A DNA stretch of 53,652 nt from Oligoflexia bacterium (GTDB lineage: Bacteria; Bdellovibrionota; Bdellovibrionia; JABDDW01), in the NCBI GenBank assembly GCA_034439615.1, contig JAWXAT010000013.1:1-53652 (forward strand), written 5' to 3'. This document shows positions 4,751 to 53,652 of this stretch, piece after piece (positions within the stretch are counted from its first letter, which is position 1; every line of letters begins with the position of its first letter). The notes beneath the pieces were generated by a model. It had not been told where the DNA came from. It searched no databases and saw nothing but the letters and a program-made list of their open reading frames with translations. The position numbers and the translations under genes are program-made.

Positions 4751-6260
4751 ATGCCTAAACCTCTAAAGAAAAAAACTCCCCCCAAATCTAATCAATTAGA
4801 AAAATGTCCAACAGGCATCATTGGATGAAGTTACAGAAGGCGGGTTTCCGAAAAATAGAACCACACTCATTTCTGGTGGTGCTGGTTCTGGGAAAACTCT
4901 TTTGGGGATTGATTTTTTAATCAAGGGTGCGGCTGATTTTAATGAACCAGGTATTTTCATGTCTTTTGAAAAGACAAAGGACGATCTCTATAAAGATGTG
5001 GCTTCATTAAATCTGGATTTATCTAGGCTTGTTTCACAAAAAAAAATTCTGATTGAACACGTAATACTTGATCGCAAAGACATCAGAGAGGCTGACTTTA
5101 ATTTAGAGGGAATACTCGTTCGCTTAGAACATGCCATTGATTCCATTGGAGCTAAACGAGTTGTTTTAGATTCTATTGAATCGCCCTTCGCAGGCATTAC
5201 AGACGCAGGTATTCTTCGAATTGAAATCAAAAGACTTTTTAAGTGGCTTAAAGATAAAAATGTTACGGCAATCGTGACCGGCGAACCAAGAGACGGTTCG
5301 TACACTCGCCACGGCCTTGAGGAGTTCGTTTCTGATTGTATCATTTTACTAGACAACAGAGTTAAAGAACAAATAGCTATCCGAAGACTTCGTGTTATTA
5401 AATATCGTGGTTCAAATCATGGAACAAACGAATATCCATTCGTCATTGATAAGTCAGGACTTTCTGTTATTCCGATCACGTCAGCAGGGCTTGATCAGCC
5501 AGGTACATCCAAGAAAGTTCCAACAGGAATTTCGTCGCTCGACAAAATGTTCAAGGGTAAACCAGGATTCACATTAGGCAGTACGATACTGGTTTCAGGC
5601 ACTGCGGGCACAGGTAAAACAAGTCTTGCGGCAGCCTTCGCTTTAGAAACCTGCGAACGTGGCGAGAGGTGTCTTTTCTTATCTTATGAGGAATCTTCCG
5701 GGCAACTTATTCAAAATATGAGTTCAATTGGTATTGATTTGGCGCCTTGGGTAAAAAAAGGACTTTTAAAAATTGTCTCCGTAAGACCTTCCTTTTTTGG
5801 ACTAGAAATGCATTTACTCGATTTATACAAAATCGTTGATAGTTTTAAACCAAAGTCTGTCGTTGTGGACCCTCTGACAAGTCTTATTGGAGAGGGCGAC
5901 GAGCGCGAAATCAGGTCCATGATTACTCGCATGATTGATCTTCTAAAATCTAGATCAATCACCACTTTTTTCACAAGCCTCGTTTCCTCATCAGCACAAA
6001 ATGATACGAGCGGTGAAATCGGAGTCTCATCTCTAATTGACACATGGATTGTTGTGCGAGAATTAGAAGAAGATGCAGGAAAAAAACGTATTCTCGGACT
6101 TTTCATTGTGAAGTCGCGTGGTACCGGTCACGAGAGTGATGTTCATAAATTAATTTTGAGCGATGATGGAATTAGCTTGGTACCAATGGATCCTGTGGCA
6201 GGCGCCCATATGAGCAGGGGTAATGAAAAGATTGTTACATCAGGTAGCGTCGGGATATGA
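4751..6260 (+). pseudogene. Two-domain KaiC-like ATPase, frameshifted near the N-terminus
   Basis: Starting at ATG 4751 (AAGGA upstream), the product reads to PTGIIG and hits TGA at 4826. In another frame the family continuation LDEVTEGGFPKNRTT begins at once and stays open to 6260. The two parts make a KaiC protein of about 500 aa. It has two RecA-like domains with P-loops GGAGSGKT and GTAGTGKT. Domain 2 keeps the paired catalytic glutamates (SYEES), while domain 1 has SFEKT, with Lys in place of the second Glu. At the KaiC S431/T432 position domain 2 has Ser-Ser (VSSLIDTW, 6024-6047), so phosphorylatable residues are present. Restoring one lost ATTGG unit would repair the frame. Without the N-terminal 25 codons an internal start might still give a protein. 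Confidence 0.8.
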
Positions 6261-28041: not shown

Positions 28042-28749
28042 ATGAATATCGTTAATATTAACGTCATGCAAAAAGTTAAAAATTTGAAATACGTATTATT
28101 CCCTGGGACACATGTTGAAGAAATTTTTCTACCCTATTATCAAAGTGCATATAAACTTTGGAAAGACGTATGGACTGAAACAATTTATGAACTCGATGGT
28201 CATAAAAATATTTTTTCTGATGACTTTACCCGTCAAGATGAAATAGGCGCACTCTTTGACGGGTCAGAATGTATCATGCTCAGTTTTTTCAAGATGGTTG
28301 ATCTCAACCTGACCGCACATCGTGATGATTCGTACTTTAAAGTTTGGCCAAAAGATATCATTGATAAATTGATCGTGAATAACAAACCTGTATTGATTGG
28401 CAGCAACATTACAGCTTCTCAATCTTTTAGAGGAAAACACTTTGGACTTTCTACCAAAGACTTACTGATGGGGCTGCTCATAAAGAGGCTCCAACACACT
28501 CCTGCAGGAGCAATGACAGGAACTATGCGCAATAATCGAGGCATGCATGAATGTGCATACCGACATGGCGCTACTCCTTTAAAACAAGGTCTTATACATC
28601 ATGGTGTTGAAGTCGATTTAGTTGGTTTTTTTCAAGACAAAGTGAAGCCATGCGATATCCCTGGTATTCAAAATTTAGTGAACACCTTATGGAAAAAACA
28701 TTTAGAATTCCTAAATCATGTGGATTTTAGAAACGTCAGTACCCTCTGA
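28042..28749 (+). CDS. GNAT/acyl-homoserine-synthase-like acyltransferase (tentative)
   Basis: This 235-residue protein is not one I can name. It has DDFTRQDEIGALFDGSECIMLS, then SQSFRGKHFGLSTKDLLMGLLIKRL, which resembles the acetyl-CoA/acyl-carrier binding strand and helix of GNAT-fold proteins such as FeeM-type N-acyl amino acid synthases, and then MRNNRGMHECAYRHGA. No signal peptide. It is 12 bp after the acyl-CoA dehydrogenase gene, so a combined acyl-chain pathway is plausible. Converges with the split gene downstream by 39 bp overlap. Confidence 0.45.
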   Translation: MNIVNINVMQKVKNLKYVLFPGTHVEEIFLPYYQSAYKLWKDVWTETIYELDGHKNIFSDDFTRQDEIGALFDGSECIMLSFFKMVDLNLTAHRDDSYFKVWPKDIIDKLIVNNKPVLIGSNITASQSFRGKHFGLSTKDLLMGLLIKRLQHTPAGAMTGTMRNNRGMHECAYRHGATPLKQGLIHHGVEVDLVGFFQDKVKPCDIPGIQNLVNTLWKKHLEFLNHVDFRNVSTL

Positions 28750-29439
28750 TATAACTTCGGCTCTTAGCGTGGTTAACACAGCCACTGATTTTCCTGAACG
28801 ATCTTCGAGCGGGCATATATATTTAAGTTTAACTTTGAACGCTTTTTTAGCATTAAGGTAATGCTCCTTCACGATATGATCTGGAGCTGTGAAAGGAAGT
28901 GTACCTTGACCATGCTTGATAACATTTTCAGAGCATTTTATCATTGCATCAATAACCTGTTGAGGTCTTTCGTAAAGCACAAACCATTCATTACAAATTA
29001 AATCTAAAAGACTATAACTAACACACATGAAAAATTCGAAGTTTCTGTAGAGCTGCATCCATTGAGCACTATAAATCTCAATAACATCACCTTTGGTTAT
29101 AAACCGTGTGACGTCATCTTTGGGCTTAAGATTGTATTTTTGAAAAGCAATATTGAGGTATTTAATTTCTTAGGCAAGTGTAGTTTTAGTAATATCAGAA
29201 TTCATAGAATCAGGTAAATTATAGACTATACTTATATAATCAAAAATACCTTTGGAAATTCTGCGCTGTACATCATCAGGTAAATTCAAAAAAGTCGTTT
29301 TAGCCTCTGAAGTATACGCTTTAACTTTGATACCCTTGACTGCTAATAAATCTCTTAAAAACTCAAGTTGCTGACATAATTCATCGACTAACTCAATAGT
29401 ACTTTTATTTATCCTGTTAACTTCTTTGAAAAGTTCCAT
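28711..29439 (-). pseudogene. Hypothetical gene split by an in-frame TAA
   Basis: A single reading frame runs from ATG 29439 (GGAGG about 10 bp upstream) to 28711 with one interruption, TAA at 29170-29172. The 5' part (89 aa) is helical. The 3' part reads on without a break: IKYLNIAFQKYNLKPKDDV, then RFITKGDVIEIYSAQW, FVCN-like hydrophobic and ERPQQVIDAMIKCSENVI stretches. Together it would be about 240 aa. I do not recognise the family. A CAA or GAA codon at the stop would restore the gene, so a single nonsense mutation is the simplest reading. Confidence 0.55.
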
Positions 29440-45832: not shown

Positions 45833-46465
45833 TTAATTTACTCTTTGAAGATAAATTGATCGCGCAAGATCACCTGGGCTAATACCTAGAAGCCCCTCTG
45901 GTGGCGGATGACGCAATACTGAAGTCCATTCTGAAGTGAAAGGCTTAAAAGTCATTGGTCTAAGTAAAAAAACCGGATTTCCATTATTTGCGTTCATAAA
46001 ACTATAAAAAACCAGTTCAGAACAATAGAGTTCAGAAATTCCTAATTTAAACTCCGAATCATAGGGAGTACCAATAAACCGACGTGCATTTTGCACAGCT
46101 TTAATTGCTAAAATCTGCCCGTTTACTGATTTCATACGCATGTAAACGGGCTGTGAATTAATGCGACTAAGTAAATATTGAAGTGAAACGGCCATTACTT
46201 TTGGTTCAATCGCCATGATCACTACCCACGCTCCACTTGCATCACGATCAAGAATTCCTACATGAGAAAATGGAGAATTAGTTGTTTTCTCAATAAGAGA
46301 GCACACATAACAGGGCATCTTTAAAAAAATAAGATCACCTGGTTTTAACGCCCCAAAGGTTTGCGAAGTAAGAAGTAAAATACTCAAAACCAAAATAAAT
46401 AATTGCACTTGCTGCTTTAGTACTTTCATGAGACAGGGGCTATCATCAAAACAAAGTGAATTCAA
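45833..46465 (-). CDS. YiiX/YebB-like papain-fold amidase, exported
   Basis: The product is up to 210 aa. An internal ATG (about residue 13, position 46429) gives a better signal-peptide start: KQQVQLFILVLSILLLTSQTFG. The mature part has the circularly permuted NlpC/P60-like order: GDLIFLK, then FSHVGILD with the catalytic His, and later GTPYDSEFKLGISELYCSELVFYSF with the catalytic Cys. It probably cuts a peptidoglycan peptide or lipid amide outside the cytoplasm. It sits between the divergent gap gene and hemA. Neither start has a good ribosome binding site. Confidence 0.72.
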   Translation of the reverse strand: MNSLCFDDSPCLMKVLKQQVQLFILVLSILLLTSQTFGALKPGDLIFLKMPCYVCSLIEKTTNSPFSHVGILDRDASGAWVVIMAIEPKVMAVSLQYLLSRINSQPVYMRMKSVNGQILAIKAVQNARRFIGTPYDSEFKLGISELYCSELVFYSFMNANNGNPVFLLRPMTFKPFTSEWTSVLRHPPPEGLLGISPGDLARSIYLQRVN

Positions 46466-50831: not shown

Positions 50832-51530
50832 ATGTTTAAAAGTTTAAAAAATTTGTTTTTCCCTGAAAGCACCGCCACTGAGGCTCCCGTTAGCGGTCAT
50901 ATATATTTTGGCGCTGAGAAACGAAAACACGCACGTATTGCGTACCCATCTTTCGGAGCAATCGGGCGCCTTCCTACAATATTTCTGAACAATGTCAAAT
51001 TACCTGTAGCGAATTTAAGTGTAGGTGGATTTTTGCTCACAAGCCCTCAACTGAATATGAAACCAGGAGATATTGGTCAATTTAAATTTACATGGAAAGT
51101 AGGTGCTGAGTTTGTTCAAAAGGCAAAACTACTGCGTGTAAATGGAACCCACTGGCATTTTAAATTTACCGATGTTGACCCACGATTTTATGTTCGTTTC
51201 TTTGATGTGACAAAACCCGGTGACCTTGGACGCTTTTGTATACAACTTTCAGAAAATGAAATTCCTAAAACCGATGGATTCATTGAGATGTGGAAAAACC
51301 CAGAAAAATATTTCGTGGGTTTTAAAACCACCGAAACAATCATAGATTTTGATGGACGTAAATTTAAGTATGTCTCAACTCAAGGACTTGTTTTAGATAA
51401 TGGCACAATCGTTAAATCTGATGATCCGGTAATTGCTGACATTTTTCTTTTTTTAATTAATATTGTTCATCCAAGTTCAAAAGTACGCGAACTCATCGCT
51501 CAAATGACAGCACGCTATTTTAAGACTTAA
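50832..51530 (+). CDS. PilZ-domain protein
   Basis: This 232-residue protein has a PilZ c-di-GMP-binding motif: RKHARIAYP (RxxxR, about residues 35-43) then NLSVGGFLL (D/NxSxxG, about 72-80). The C-terminal half has no known domain. PilZ proteins act as c-di-GMP effectors. GGGGGTGA lies upstream of ATG. It is downstream of the FecR/AgmX gene by 38 bp and converges with the next gene. Confidence 0.75.
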   Translation: MFKSLKNLFFPESTATEAPVSGHIYFGAEKRKHARIAYPSFGAIGRLPTIFLNNVKLPVANLSVGGFLLTSPQLNMKPGDIGQFKFTWKVGAEFVQKAKLLRVNGTHWHFKFTDVDPRFYVRFFDVTKPGDLGRFCIQLSENEIPKTDGFIEMWKNPEKYFVGFKTTETIIDFDGRKFKYVSTQGLVLDNGTIVKSDDPVIADIFLFLINIVHPSSKVRELIAQMTARYFKT

Positions 51531-51976
51531 GGTGAAGGAAGACTTATTACCCTGGTATGTTGTTGAATTAAAAATCTAAGTACAGCCGAAGTAAAACCTT
51601 CATCAATATTTTGTTCTTTAAACCAAGTGGCAGTACTTCTCATCATGACACTTAAAGTATCGATCATTTCTTTTTTATTCGCTGTAGATAATGTTTGAAT
51701 TCGACCCATTCCATACCAATAAAAGTAAAGCCTGGTGGGCTCAAGTTCCATTTTTTTCCAAGCACCAATAAAACCAAACATCTCTAATGCAGAAATAATT
51801 TTACCGCTATTTTTTGCACCGTAATTCATGTCTTCGGGCAAACGCTTCATCAAATCTAAAAATTCTCTATCGTTAAATTTTGGTGATTTCACTGTGAAAT
51901 CAAAAATCATATCAAACTTGGTATTAATATCTGTGGCTGAATCTATTTCCGCTAAAAATTGCGGGTAATTTTTCAC
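51527..51976 (-). CDS. Hypothetical protein
   Basis: This 149-residue protein, starting at GTG 51976, is helical and charged with FDMIFDFTVKSPKFNDREFLDLMKRL and SALEMFGFIGAWKKMELEP stretches. I recognise no domain, signal peptide or motif. It follows the split AAA+ gene by 12 bp on the same strand, so it may be a partner. Confidence 0.55.
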   Translation of the reverse strand: MKNYPQFLAEIDSATDINTKFDMIFDFTVKSPKFNDREFLDLMKRLPEDMNYGAKNSGKIISALEMFGFIGAWKKMELEPTRLYFYWYGMGRIQTLSTANKKEMIDTLSVMMRSTATWFKEQNIDEGFTSAVLRFLIQQHTRVISLPSP

Positions 51977-51988
51977 ATCATACTTTTC

Positions 51989-53329
51989 TCAATCAAGACC
52001 ATCTGCTTTTTTGAATTGATATGGAGGGGCGATATCATTTCCGTATACTTTTCTGTAAAGTGTGAACTGTTCCTCAAGAGTCAATTCAGCTGCGACTACA
52101 GTAAATACAAGTGACCGTTTATCAGCTGAAGCCGTAATATTCACAACATCGCCTGACTTGACTTGATCTGCCGAAAGCAAATTCGTTAACGGATCTGCAA
52201 TTAAATGTTCTACTGTACGACGAATACTTCGCCCGCCAAATTTTGCTTCATATCCACTTTTCAAAATAACATTTTTAGCCTCAGGAGAAACGTTGAAAAA
52301 CACTTATGTCATAGTGTTGGCAAAGAAGTTTTTCCGCTGCACAGCGGCCAAGTTCATGTTTAACACTTTCAAAGATTCTTCTGGGGTAAGTTGTGAAAAT
52401 ACAAACGTCTTATTAATTCTATTTAAAAATTCAGGTGATAATCGTTTTCCTGCTGCATATAATGCGGCTTTCACAAGGCGATCATCACGTTTTTTCATTT
52501 GATCAGTGGCAGTGCCAGTATTTATTTTTGCAAAACCAATATTGTTATTTTCTGTAAGAATTTTTTGCATGTCACCCTGACCAAGATTACTTGTCAGTAT
52601 AAAAATCGTATTTGAAAAATCAACTACTTTGTTTGAAGCCGTAGTCATTTTTCCAGTATCTAAGATTGCCAAAAGTAGGCGTTCAAGACTAGCACTCGCT
52701 TTTTCAATTTCATCGATTAAAACGATATTTACGTTATGTTTTTTACTAGTAATCTTAGCCAATATTTCAGGTGTAATGAGCGCTTCTGTTTGACCATGGC
52801 CTATGTAACCTGCAGGTGAACCAGTAAGTTTTGATATTGAATGTTCTTCTTGTAGTTCACCACAATCTACTCTAACCATTGCGTCTGGGTCACCATTGAT
52901 TGCCTCAGCAATTGCTTCGGCCGTTAATGTTTTACCGGTTCCAGTAACTCCAAGTAATAAAAATGAAGCTATAGGTTTGTTTTTACTCTTTGTTCCACTA
53001 AAACCTCTTTGTACAGCTTGAGCTAATGTATACTTAAGTTCACTTTACCCAACCATAAGACGATCTAATTTATGTAAAACATCAAGTCCTTCAGTTCCAA
53101 GTTTTGTATGATCTAATTGAGGTTGCTCCCCAAGAATAAAAGAAATTCTACTTTCTGGATTTTTAGAAATTTTCCCCAAACTATCACTCAGTTCGTCACC
53201 AGTTAAACCTTGGAGTTCTTTTACACATTGGGATACCTTTACCAGTGCTGTCGATTGAGCAGCTTGGGCCAAAGTAGAAATAAAAATTGAAGCGACGAAG
53301 AGATTTAAAGTAAGAAATGTTTTTTGCAC
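51989..53329 (-). pseudogene. Secreted ClpB-like AAA+ ATPase gene with two in-frame TAA codons
   Basis: One reading frame from GTG 53329 to TGA at 51989 has two TAA interruptions (53045-53047 and 52304-52306). Joined, it gives a protein of about 446 aa: an N-terminal Sec-type signal peptide ending LAQA, a short helical region, and a class-I AAA+ module resembling ClpB/ClpA D2: FLLLGVTGTGKTLTAEAIA (Walker A), VLIDEIEKAS (Walker B), IFILTSN (sensor 1), LSPEFLNRINKTFVF (arginine finger), KFGGRSIRRTVEHLI. The first stop falls where homologues have GQ (LMVG-TAA-SELKYT), so CAA to TAA is a likely change. A signal peptide on an AAA+ protein is itself unusual. Confidence 0.65.
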
Positions 53330-53531
53330 TGAAGCTGACTCCTGTTTGTTGAGAGTTCTATAATTACAAATGCAAATAGTATGTTGCGTGAGGATTAATA
53401 TATTCGATTTAAGGGCCAACGGGGTGAGTATTAAAAAGTCAGTGTGACAAAATACGCTTAAAATTTTTGGGTCTCCGGCTTTAAACGGGGTGTGGCCATT
53501 TGAAAAAGAAATGATCAGTGTTTATCGATAG

Positions 53532-53652
53532 ATGATTCAGATAGCCACAGCGTTGAATAATCGGCTTCTCACTGGTACAAATGTTTTTGCTTATGATGAC
53601 CATGACAAAGAGTTTGCAGATTATGAGTATCATTTGTTCCATTCAAAGAGAG
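53532..53652 (+). CDS. Partial hypothetical frame at right edge
   Basis: ATG 53532 opens a frame that runs to the last base (40 codons: IQIATALNNRLLTGTNVFAY, then DDHDKEFADYEYHLFHSK). It is protein-like in composition but no ribosome binding site or family is visible, so it may be chance. The bases 53330-53531 before it show no other gene. Confidence 0.25.
   Translation, partial: MIQIATALNNRLLTGTNVFAYDDHDKEFADYEYHLFHSKR

Follow-up and report, generated by a model that had tools for sequence, protein, structure and literature searches.

A ClpB/ClpA-D2-like AAA+ gene with a predicted export signal and three in-frame stop codons in an Oligoflexia genome

Results

An AAA+ gene near a contig end is interrupted by three in-frame stop codons

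The window, meaning the whole stretch of 53,652 nucleotides analysed, is one entire contig (C13) of the 3.0 Mb draft genome G000, an assembly of 70 contigs that is 96% complete. On its minus strand, 323 bases from the contig end, lies an AAA+ gene that runs from a GTG start codon (53327-53329) to a final TAA (51527-51529) and contains the following features:

51527..53329, minus strand: the interrupted gene in full, from the GTG to the last TAA, 601 codons with the three premature stops counted, with a full-length match to a 649-aa relative in genome G005
53339..53343, minus strand: ribosome-binding-like AGGAG in the sequence 9 nt upstream of the GTG
53045..53047, minus strand: premature stop 1, TAA, codon 95, ahead of Walker A; top coding-context stop in the window
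52304..52306, minus strand: premature stop 2, TAA, codon 342, within the D2-small (lid) domain; read from the sequence
51989..51991, minus strand: premature stop 3, TGA, codon 447; read from the sequence

The four resulting pieces lie in one frame and require zero frameshifts. In this shared frame all four have coding scores of 0.129-0.175, compared with a reference of 0.101 +/- 0.048 for the long window genes used for training, and the other frames score negative. Across the whole window, stop 1 is the strongest site of coding on both sides of a stop. The earlier note had described two TAA codons splitting an exported AAA+ motor into three pieces of the same frame and had placed the gene end at 51989. 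Both TAA positions, the frame, the signal peptide and the motor hold. The extent and the stop count do not, as the supposed end is the third premature stop, beyond which the frame runs on to the final TAA.

The final stop overlaps the tail of a convergent PilZ-type gene (50832-51530). No conserved operon was seen around the AAA+ gene and no second copy was found in G000. An open frame (MIQIATALNNRLLTGTNVFAYDDHDKEFADYEYHLFHSKR) begins at 53532-53652 on the plus strand, divergent from the AAA+ gene, and is truncated by the contig end. Elsewhere in the window, a Peptidase_C92 gene (45833-46465, minus strand) encodes a YaeF/YiiX-type permuted papain amidase with an N-terminal hydrophobic segment.

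The read-through protein consists of a signal peptide, one AAA+ module and a C-terminal extension

Read through its stops, the gene encodes a 23-aa Sec signal peptide, one AAA+ module of the type found second in ClpB and ClpA, and a C-terminal extension of about 150-200 aa. Its features, all on the minus strand, are:

53261..53329, minus strand: Sec signal peptide MQKTFLTLNLFVASIFISTLAQA, with cleavage predicted to follow AQA; four relatives have signal peptides at the same place
52409..52978, minus strand: AAA_2 domain (Pfam, 5e-38)
52136..52390, minus strand: ClpB_D2-small (lid) domain, broken by stop 2 (Pfam, 8e-12)
52928..52951, minus strand: Walker A, GVTGTGKT (sequence motif)
52793..52810, minus strand: pore loop GYIGHG, containing the tyrosine that grips substrates in Clp/Hsp100 D2 rings (alignment)
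52709..52726, minus strand: Walker B, IVLIDE (sequence motif)
52532..52540, minus strand: IGF tripeptide in the interval from sensor 1 to the arginine finger, present in every small-family member covering the region
52415..52429, minus strand: FLNRI, including the arginine finger (sequence motif)
52217..52237, minus strand: sensor 2, GGRSIRR (sequence motif)
52022..52060, minus strand: family motif LYRKVYGNDIAPP (YG motif), C-terminal to the lid domain (alignments; part of the search profile)
51530..51988, minus strand: C-terminal extension (homology; predicted as helical for the G005 relative, in a model of low confidence)

At the level of the module, the elements of an Hsp100/Clp D2-type AAA+ protein are all present: AAA_2 plus D2-small, Walker A and B, arginine finger, sensor 2 and the pore-loop tyrosine, whose role is established for Hsp100 proteins. 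An uninterrupted reading frame is absent, with stops at codons 95, 342 and 447. The 153-codon tail past stop 3 is homologous to the C-terminus of an intact relative; the extension had no Pfam match when the G005 copy was scanned, and the structure model of the G005 protein is of low confidence (mean pLDDT 54).

The protein has only two cysteines, at codons 35 and 156, and both recur in the G005, G141 and G164 copies; we read them as a pair that would suit a disulfide outside the cytoplasm. In ClpA and ClpX, a ClpP-docking loop occupies the position that matches the IGF tripeptide. The docking-loop pattern [IVL]-G-[FL] is present in the window, G005, G164 and G024 copies. G000 encodes one ClpP, near clpX on contig C8, and no second ClpP was found there as a partner for the loop. 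The motif may be inherited, or may serve a partner other than ClpP.

The positions of the start codons bear on whether the pieces could be separate functional polypeptides, for example a lid piece restarting after stop 2. The GTG at 52301-52303 directly abuts that stop (TAAGTG), and GTG or ATG starts are available for the later pieces. However, a sequence scan found no ATG, GTG or TTG between stop 1 and Walker A, and the first start after stop 1, ATG 52879, is already beyond Walker A. The P-loop-bearing piece therefore cannot be made separately from a standard start, and we regard a functional split gene as extremely improbable.

Intact relatives define a small family

A protein-level search of 60 relatives gave one clear match, the 649-aa protein of G005, a metagenome-assembled 'Bdellovibrionales bacterium'; on this basis, the phylum is taken as the one that includes Bdellovibrio and its kin. 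It has no stop and is 43% identical to the window protein over the core and 35% over the full length. At E <= 4.5e-42, a profile of the lid domain and YG motif matched five genomes out of 369 and no others; the best match beyond these was Clp-like, at 4e-20. As this profile was built from four of its five matches, the window gene included, G164 is the sole independent recovery. The G164 copy (593 aa) is intact and has the C-terminal extension, and its genome lies outside the window's class. The G024 copy (452 aa) is likewise intact, and the G141 copy consists of two fragments, both at contig ends. With the C-terminal extension as sole query, the matches were G005, the window and one weak match at chance level; G164 emerged with a different profile. 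Of the contig scans for relatives, one gave none and the other only the G005 contig. In phage and plasmid records, Clp-type matches were partial, none covering 80% of the query. The searches run in the densely sampled genus g10 found no small-family member. The part in predation that the earlier note considered for the window gene may or may not apply, given this result and the lack of a visible conserved operon.

A quick tree, in which several branches including that of G024 are long, places the copies of the window, G005 and G164 in one clade (support 96) joined by G024 (support 85) and sets them apart from canonical ClpB and from the ClpA-type group. In the intact family, both Walker motifs, the arginine finger, sensor 2 and the tyrosine of the pore loop are retained, with G024 deviating at the pore loop. 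Given this retention and what is established for Hsp100 proteins, a ring that threads polypeptides with ATP would be expected.

At the site of stop 1, relatives have His (two copies and one fragment) or Arg, and at the site of stop 2, those that align there have Arg or Gln. The glutamine previously anticipated at the first TAA agrees with the VGQ of ClpB-like sequences and not with the family.

Another single-module ClpB-like type with predicted export, of about 570-586 aa, is encoded in G338 (L123 806-2515, minus strand) and G139 (L125 1293-3050, minus strand). These two proteins are without the IGF motif and are a sister pair in the tree (support 96).

Signal peptides are a consistent feature of non-canonical AAA+ proteins in related genomes

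A signal peptide is present at every available N-terminus of the small family (G005, G141, G024 and G164). More broadly, 27 of the 29 non-canonical AAA_2 loci inspected in 15 related genomes carry one, as accepted by rule or by eye; the remaining two are a ClpX-like locus and one that starts near a contig end. The rule is home-made: it tests all start codons within the first 100-120 codons, and it missed some N-termini accepted by eye. It was positive for none of 20 full-length canonical ClpA, ClpB, ClpC and ClpX proteins of the same genomes and for 5 of the 38 window ORFs of at least 200 aa. Judged from these sequences, the signal peptide is not an accident of the window gene. The window protein carries export features and is hence predicted to be exported. 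The secretion reading proposed earlier would have been refuted by homologues that begin at the AAA+ domain and lack a signal; signal peptides were found instead, and intact homologues bearing them exist in G005, G164 and G024, supporting a secreted ClpB-like AAA+ protein.

The same N-terminal segment could alternatively be a membrane anchor that leaves the motor facing the cytoplasm, a reading that concerns the location of the family and not the stops. FtsH provides a precedent, as its N-terminal membrane segments hold an AAA+ protease that faces the cytoplasm, and the window protein by itself has a neutral charge asymmetry (1 against 1). In a set of 38 N-termini of exported-type AAA+ proteins, whose starts were picked by hand, the N-flank is nevertheless more charged than the C-flank in 30, equal in 7 and lower in 1, an N-in/C-out bias of 30 against 1. 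Under a lenient rule, all 38 have an A-x-A-like site after the hydrophobic segment, and none has a second membrane segment that would return the chain. A cytoplasm-facing anchor is thus unlikely, and export is the preferred reading.

Nonsense mutations probably silenced this copy

We conclude that the window gene is probably a decayed representative of a small family in the phylum, whose intact members would be exported single-ring ClpB/ClpA-D2-like AAA+ unfoldases. In the intact family, Sec would export the protein and the signal peptide would then be cut off, after which the AAA+ modules would assemble as a ring outside the cytoplasmic membrane. The pore-loop tyrosine would grip polypeptides, with ATP driving their unfolding or threading as in Hsp100 proteins. 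In G000, three nonsense mutations would have silenced the copy: translation is predicted to end after 94 codons, leaving a short exported peptide as the only product. The relatives with intact genes, the single copy in G000 and the start-free interval from stop 1 to Walker A support decay, which the earlier note had offered as one of two possibilities and which is now the better supported. Against it, all catalytic motifs survive in the interrupted gene.

A comparison sample of about 397 kb from G000 contained three other genes with in-frame stops in a coding context, which indicates that this genome carries some nonsense-interrupted genes. The AAA+ gene has the most stops among those seen. 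The other three are:

window 28711-29439, minus strand: gene broken by one in-frame TAA (29170-29172), with seamless coding on either side
L132 around 2560, plus strand, G000 contig C6: hydantoinase-like gene (named by eye), one in-frame TAG at 2560
L129 around 5346, plus strand, G000 contig C3: relaxase-like mobilisation gene (named by eye), one in-frame TAG at 5346

The in-frame-stop candidates in 318 kb of G002 resemble ordinary tandem genes almost without exception. A reassigned stop codon was considered and rejected: TAA, TAG and TGA all terminate long window genes, and the other interrupted genes have TAG or TAA.

Some or all of the stops could instead be consensus or sequencing errors in a gene that is intact in the organism. 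The genome is a draft, the gene lies close to a contig end, and the stops come without a frameshift and leave the catalytic motifs unbroken. Three stop-making substitution errors in one gene are unlikely, however, given the intact glycolytic genes nearby, and the hydantoinase-like and relaxase-like genes, which are of accessory type, are also interrupted by single nonsense changes. We therefore consider an assembly artefact fairly unlikely.

The possibility that regulated or low-level readthrough retains some full-length protein under purifying selection draws on the same absence of frameshifts, on the coding-like composition of all four pieces and on the intact motifs. It has been argued that bacteria frequently read through in-frame stops (PMC7918605). 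Here, the losses would multiply over three stops of two different kinds, the intact relatives have sense codons, and TAA, TAG and TGA each end long genes in the window. Expression by readthrough, the other possibility raised earlier, is disfavoured because it needs three such events against sense codons in relatives and normal stop use in the window; we judge it very unlikely.

Silencing by nonsense mutation, the preferred reading, has one somewhat unusual aspect. Three nonsense changes and no frameshift have a probability of about 0.02-0.25 at assumed indel/substitution ratios of 0.15-0.03, and this nonsense-only pattern is mild evidence for remaining constraint, somewhat unusual for free decay.

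The phylum encodes larger AAA+ and AAA+/M41 proteins with predicted export

Many of the AAA+ proteins with a signal peptide are 1,100-1,480 aa long and combine two or three AAA+ modules with a C-terminal Peptidase_M41 (FtsH-type) domain. HExxH and at least one P-loop were found in 12 of 14 large proteins scanned, the M41 domain being checked by Pfam in three of the large proteins only. When a G002 protein served as query, matches clearly better than those to canonical Clp (E < 1e-45) appeared in about 40 of the 369 genomes, mostly in ORFs of 850-1,600 aa; this boundary is approximate because the query shares Clp modules. In genus g10, of which many genomes were sampled, only canonical-sized AAA_2 matches were found. 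G000 itself has two adjacent intact AAA+ genes with predicted export on contig C51 (L054 1748-6040 and 6155-8920, minus strand). They encode proteins of 1,431 aa and 922 aa, respectively, and the C-terminal part of the 1,431-aa protein is an M41 protease domain containing HEAGH.

A cluster of signal-peptide proteins in G024 (L049, contig C11, 1917-17990, plus strand) includes the 452-aa family member. It also encodes a degenerate ClpB-like protein (P-loop GPKGSGKD), a PrkA-like protein, a SpoVR + DUF444 fusion and a 2,138-aa protein with P-loop motifs and no Pfam match. By its gene content, the cluster resembles the PrkA/SpoVR/DUF444 set in an exported form.

These proteins lead us to propose, tentatively and at somewhat less than an even chance, that the phylum has an extracytoplasmic system of ATP-dependent unfolding and degradation, composed of exported single-ring motors and multi-ring AAA+/M41 proteases, of which the window gene would be a lost component. 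If true, such a system implies an ATP source beyond the cytoplasmic membrane, for example lysed or invaded prey. A search for an ADP/ATP translocase (PF03219) as a source of ATP gave no matches in 17 genomes, with controls equally silent, which makes the result uninformative. We found no description of exported AAA+ proteins of this phylum in the openly licensed literature.

Discussion

To our knowledge, bacterial AAA+ unfoldases and proteases are regarded as working in the cytoplasm or at its membrane face, since ATP is not expected beyond the cytoplasmic membrane. For the same reason, exported ClpB-like motors appear odd. The broken window gene is ordinary and carries little weight beyond demonstrating that loss of the small family is possible. 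The point of interest is the exported AAA+ class: a phylum with many AAA+ genes that carry export signals, a predicted C-out topology and some FtsH-type fusions would allow a direct test of activity outside the cytoplasm and of the origin of ATP. Three eukaryotic parallels, CLPB of the intermembrane space, HSP101 of the parasite vacuole and Torsin of the ER, indicate that extracytoplasmic AAA+ work is feasible given a supply of ATP, to which the compartment of CLPB/SKD3 has access.

Comparison with known systems

The AAA_2 + D2-small architecture and its motifs are common to the window protein and the second AAA+ module of ClpB, ClpA and ClpC (Hsp100, class I Clp), and among solved structures the G005 copy finds its best relatives in ClpC and ClpB. 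Unlike these proteins, the window protein has one ring and no Clp N-domain or first ring, and it possesses a leading signal peptide and a new C-terminal extension and falls in a separate clade. The architecture of the ClpB disaggregase, two AAA+ rings with a middle domain and a Clp N-domain, is consequently not found, and the NCBIfam scores for ClpB (196 bits) and ClpA (177 bits) stay far below the cut-offs of 1232 and 993 bits.

Human mitochondrial CLPB/SKD3 has a single Hsp100-type AAA+ module, located in the intermembrane space outside the matrix (PMC9934407). The window protein likewise has a single module of this type, and the G005 copy matches CLPB/SKD3 at 4e-19. CLPB/SKD3 differs in its mitochondrial targeting signal, its ankyrin repeats and its compartment. 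Plasmodium HSP101, the PTEX motor, is a ClpB-type unfoldase that threads proteins in the vacuole outside the parasite (PMC7355975). It is matched by the G005 copy at 4e-36 and differs in having two rings and the partners PTEX150 and EXP2.

Torsin is a Clp-like AAA+ protein of a secretory compartment, the ER (PMC7175109), and needs LAP1 for its arginine finger (PMC4358337). In contrast, the window protein has its own arginine finger, and it does not match the Torsin profile (PF06309) at E <= 0.001; weak Torsin profile matches occur in large exported proteins of the phylum. The exported multi-AAA+/M41 proteins share with the window protein a signal peptide, Clp-type AAA+ modules and intact P-loops. 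They are much larger, with two or three modules and a C-terminal M41 HExxH, whereas the window protein is limited to a single module and lacks a protease.
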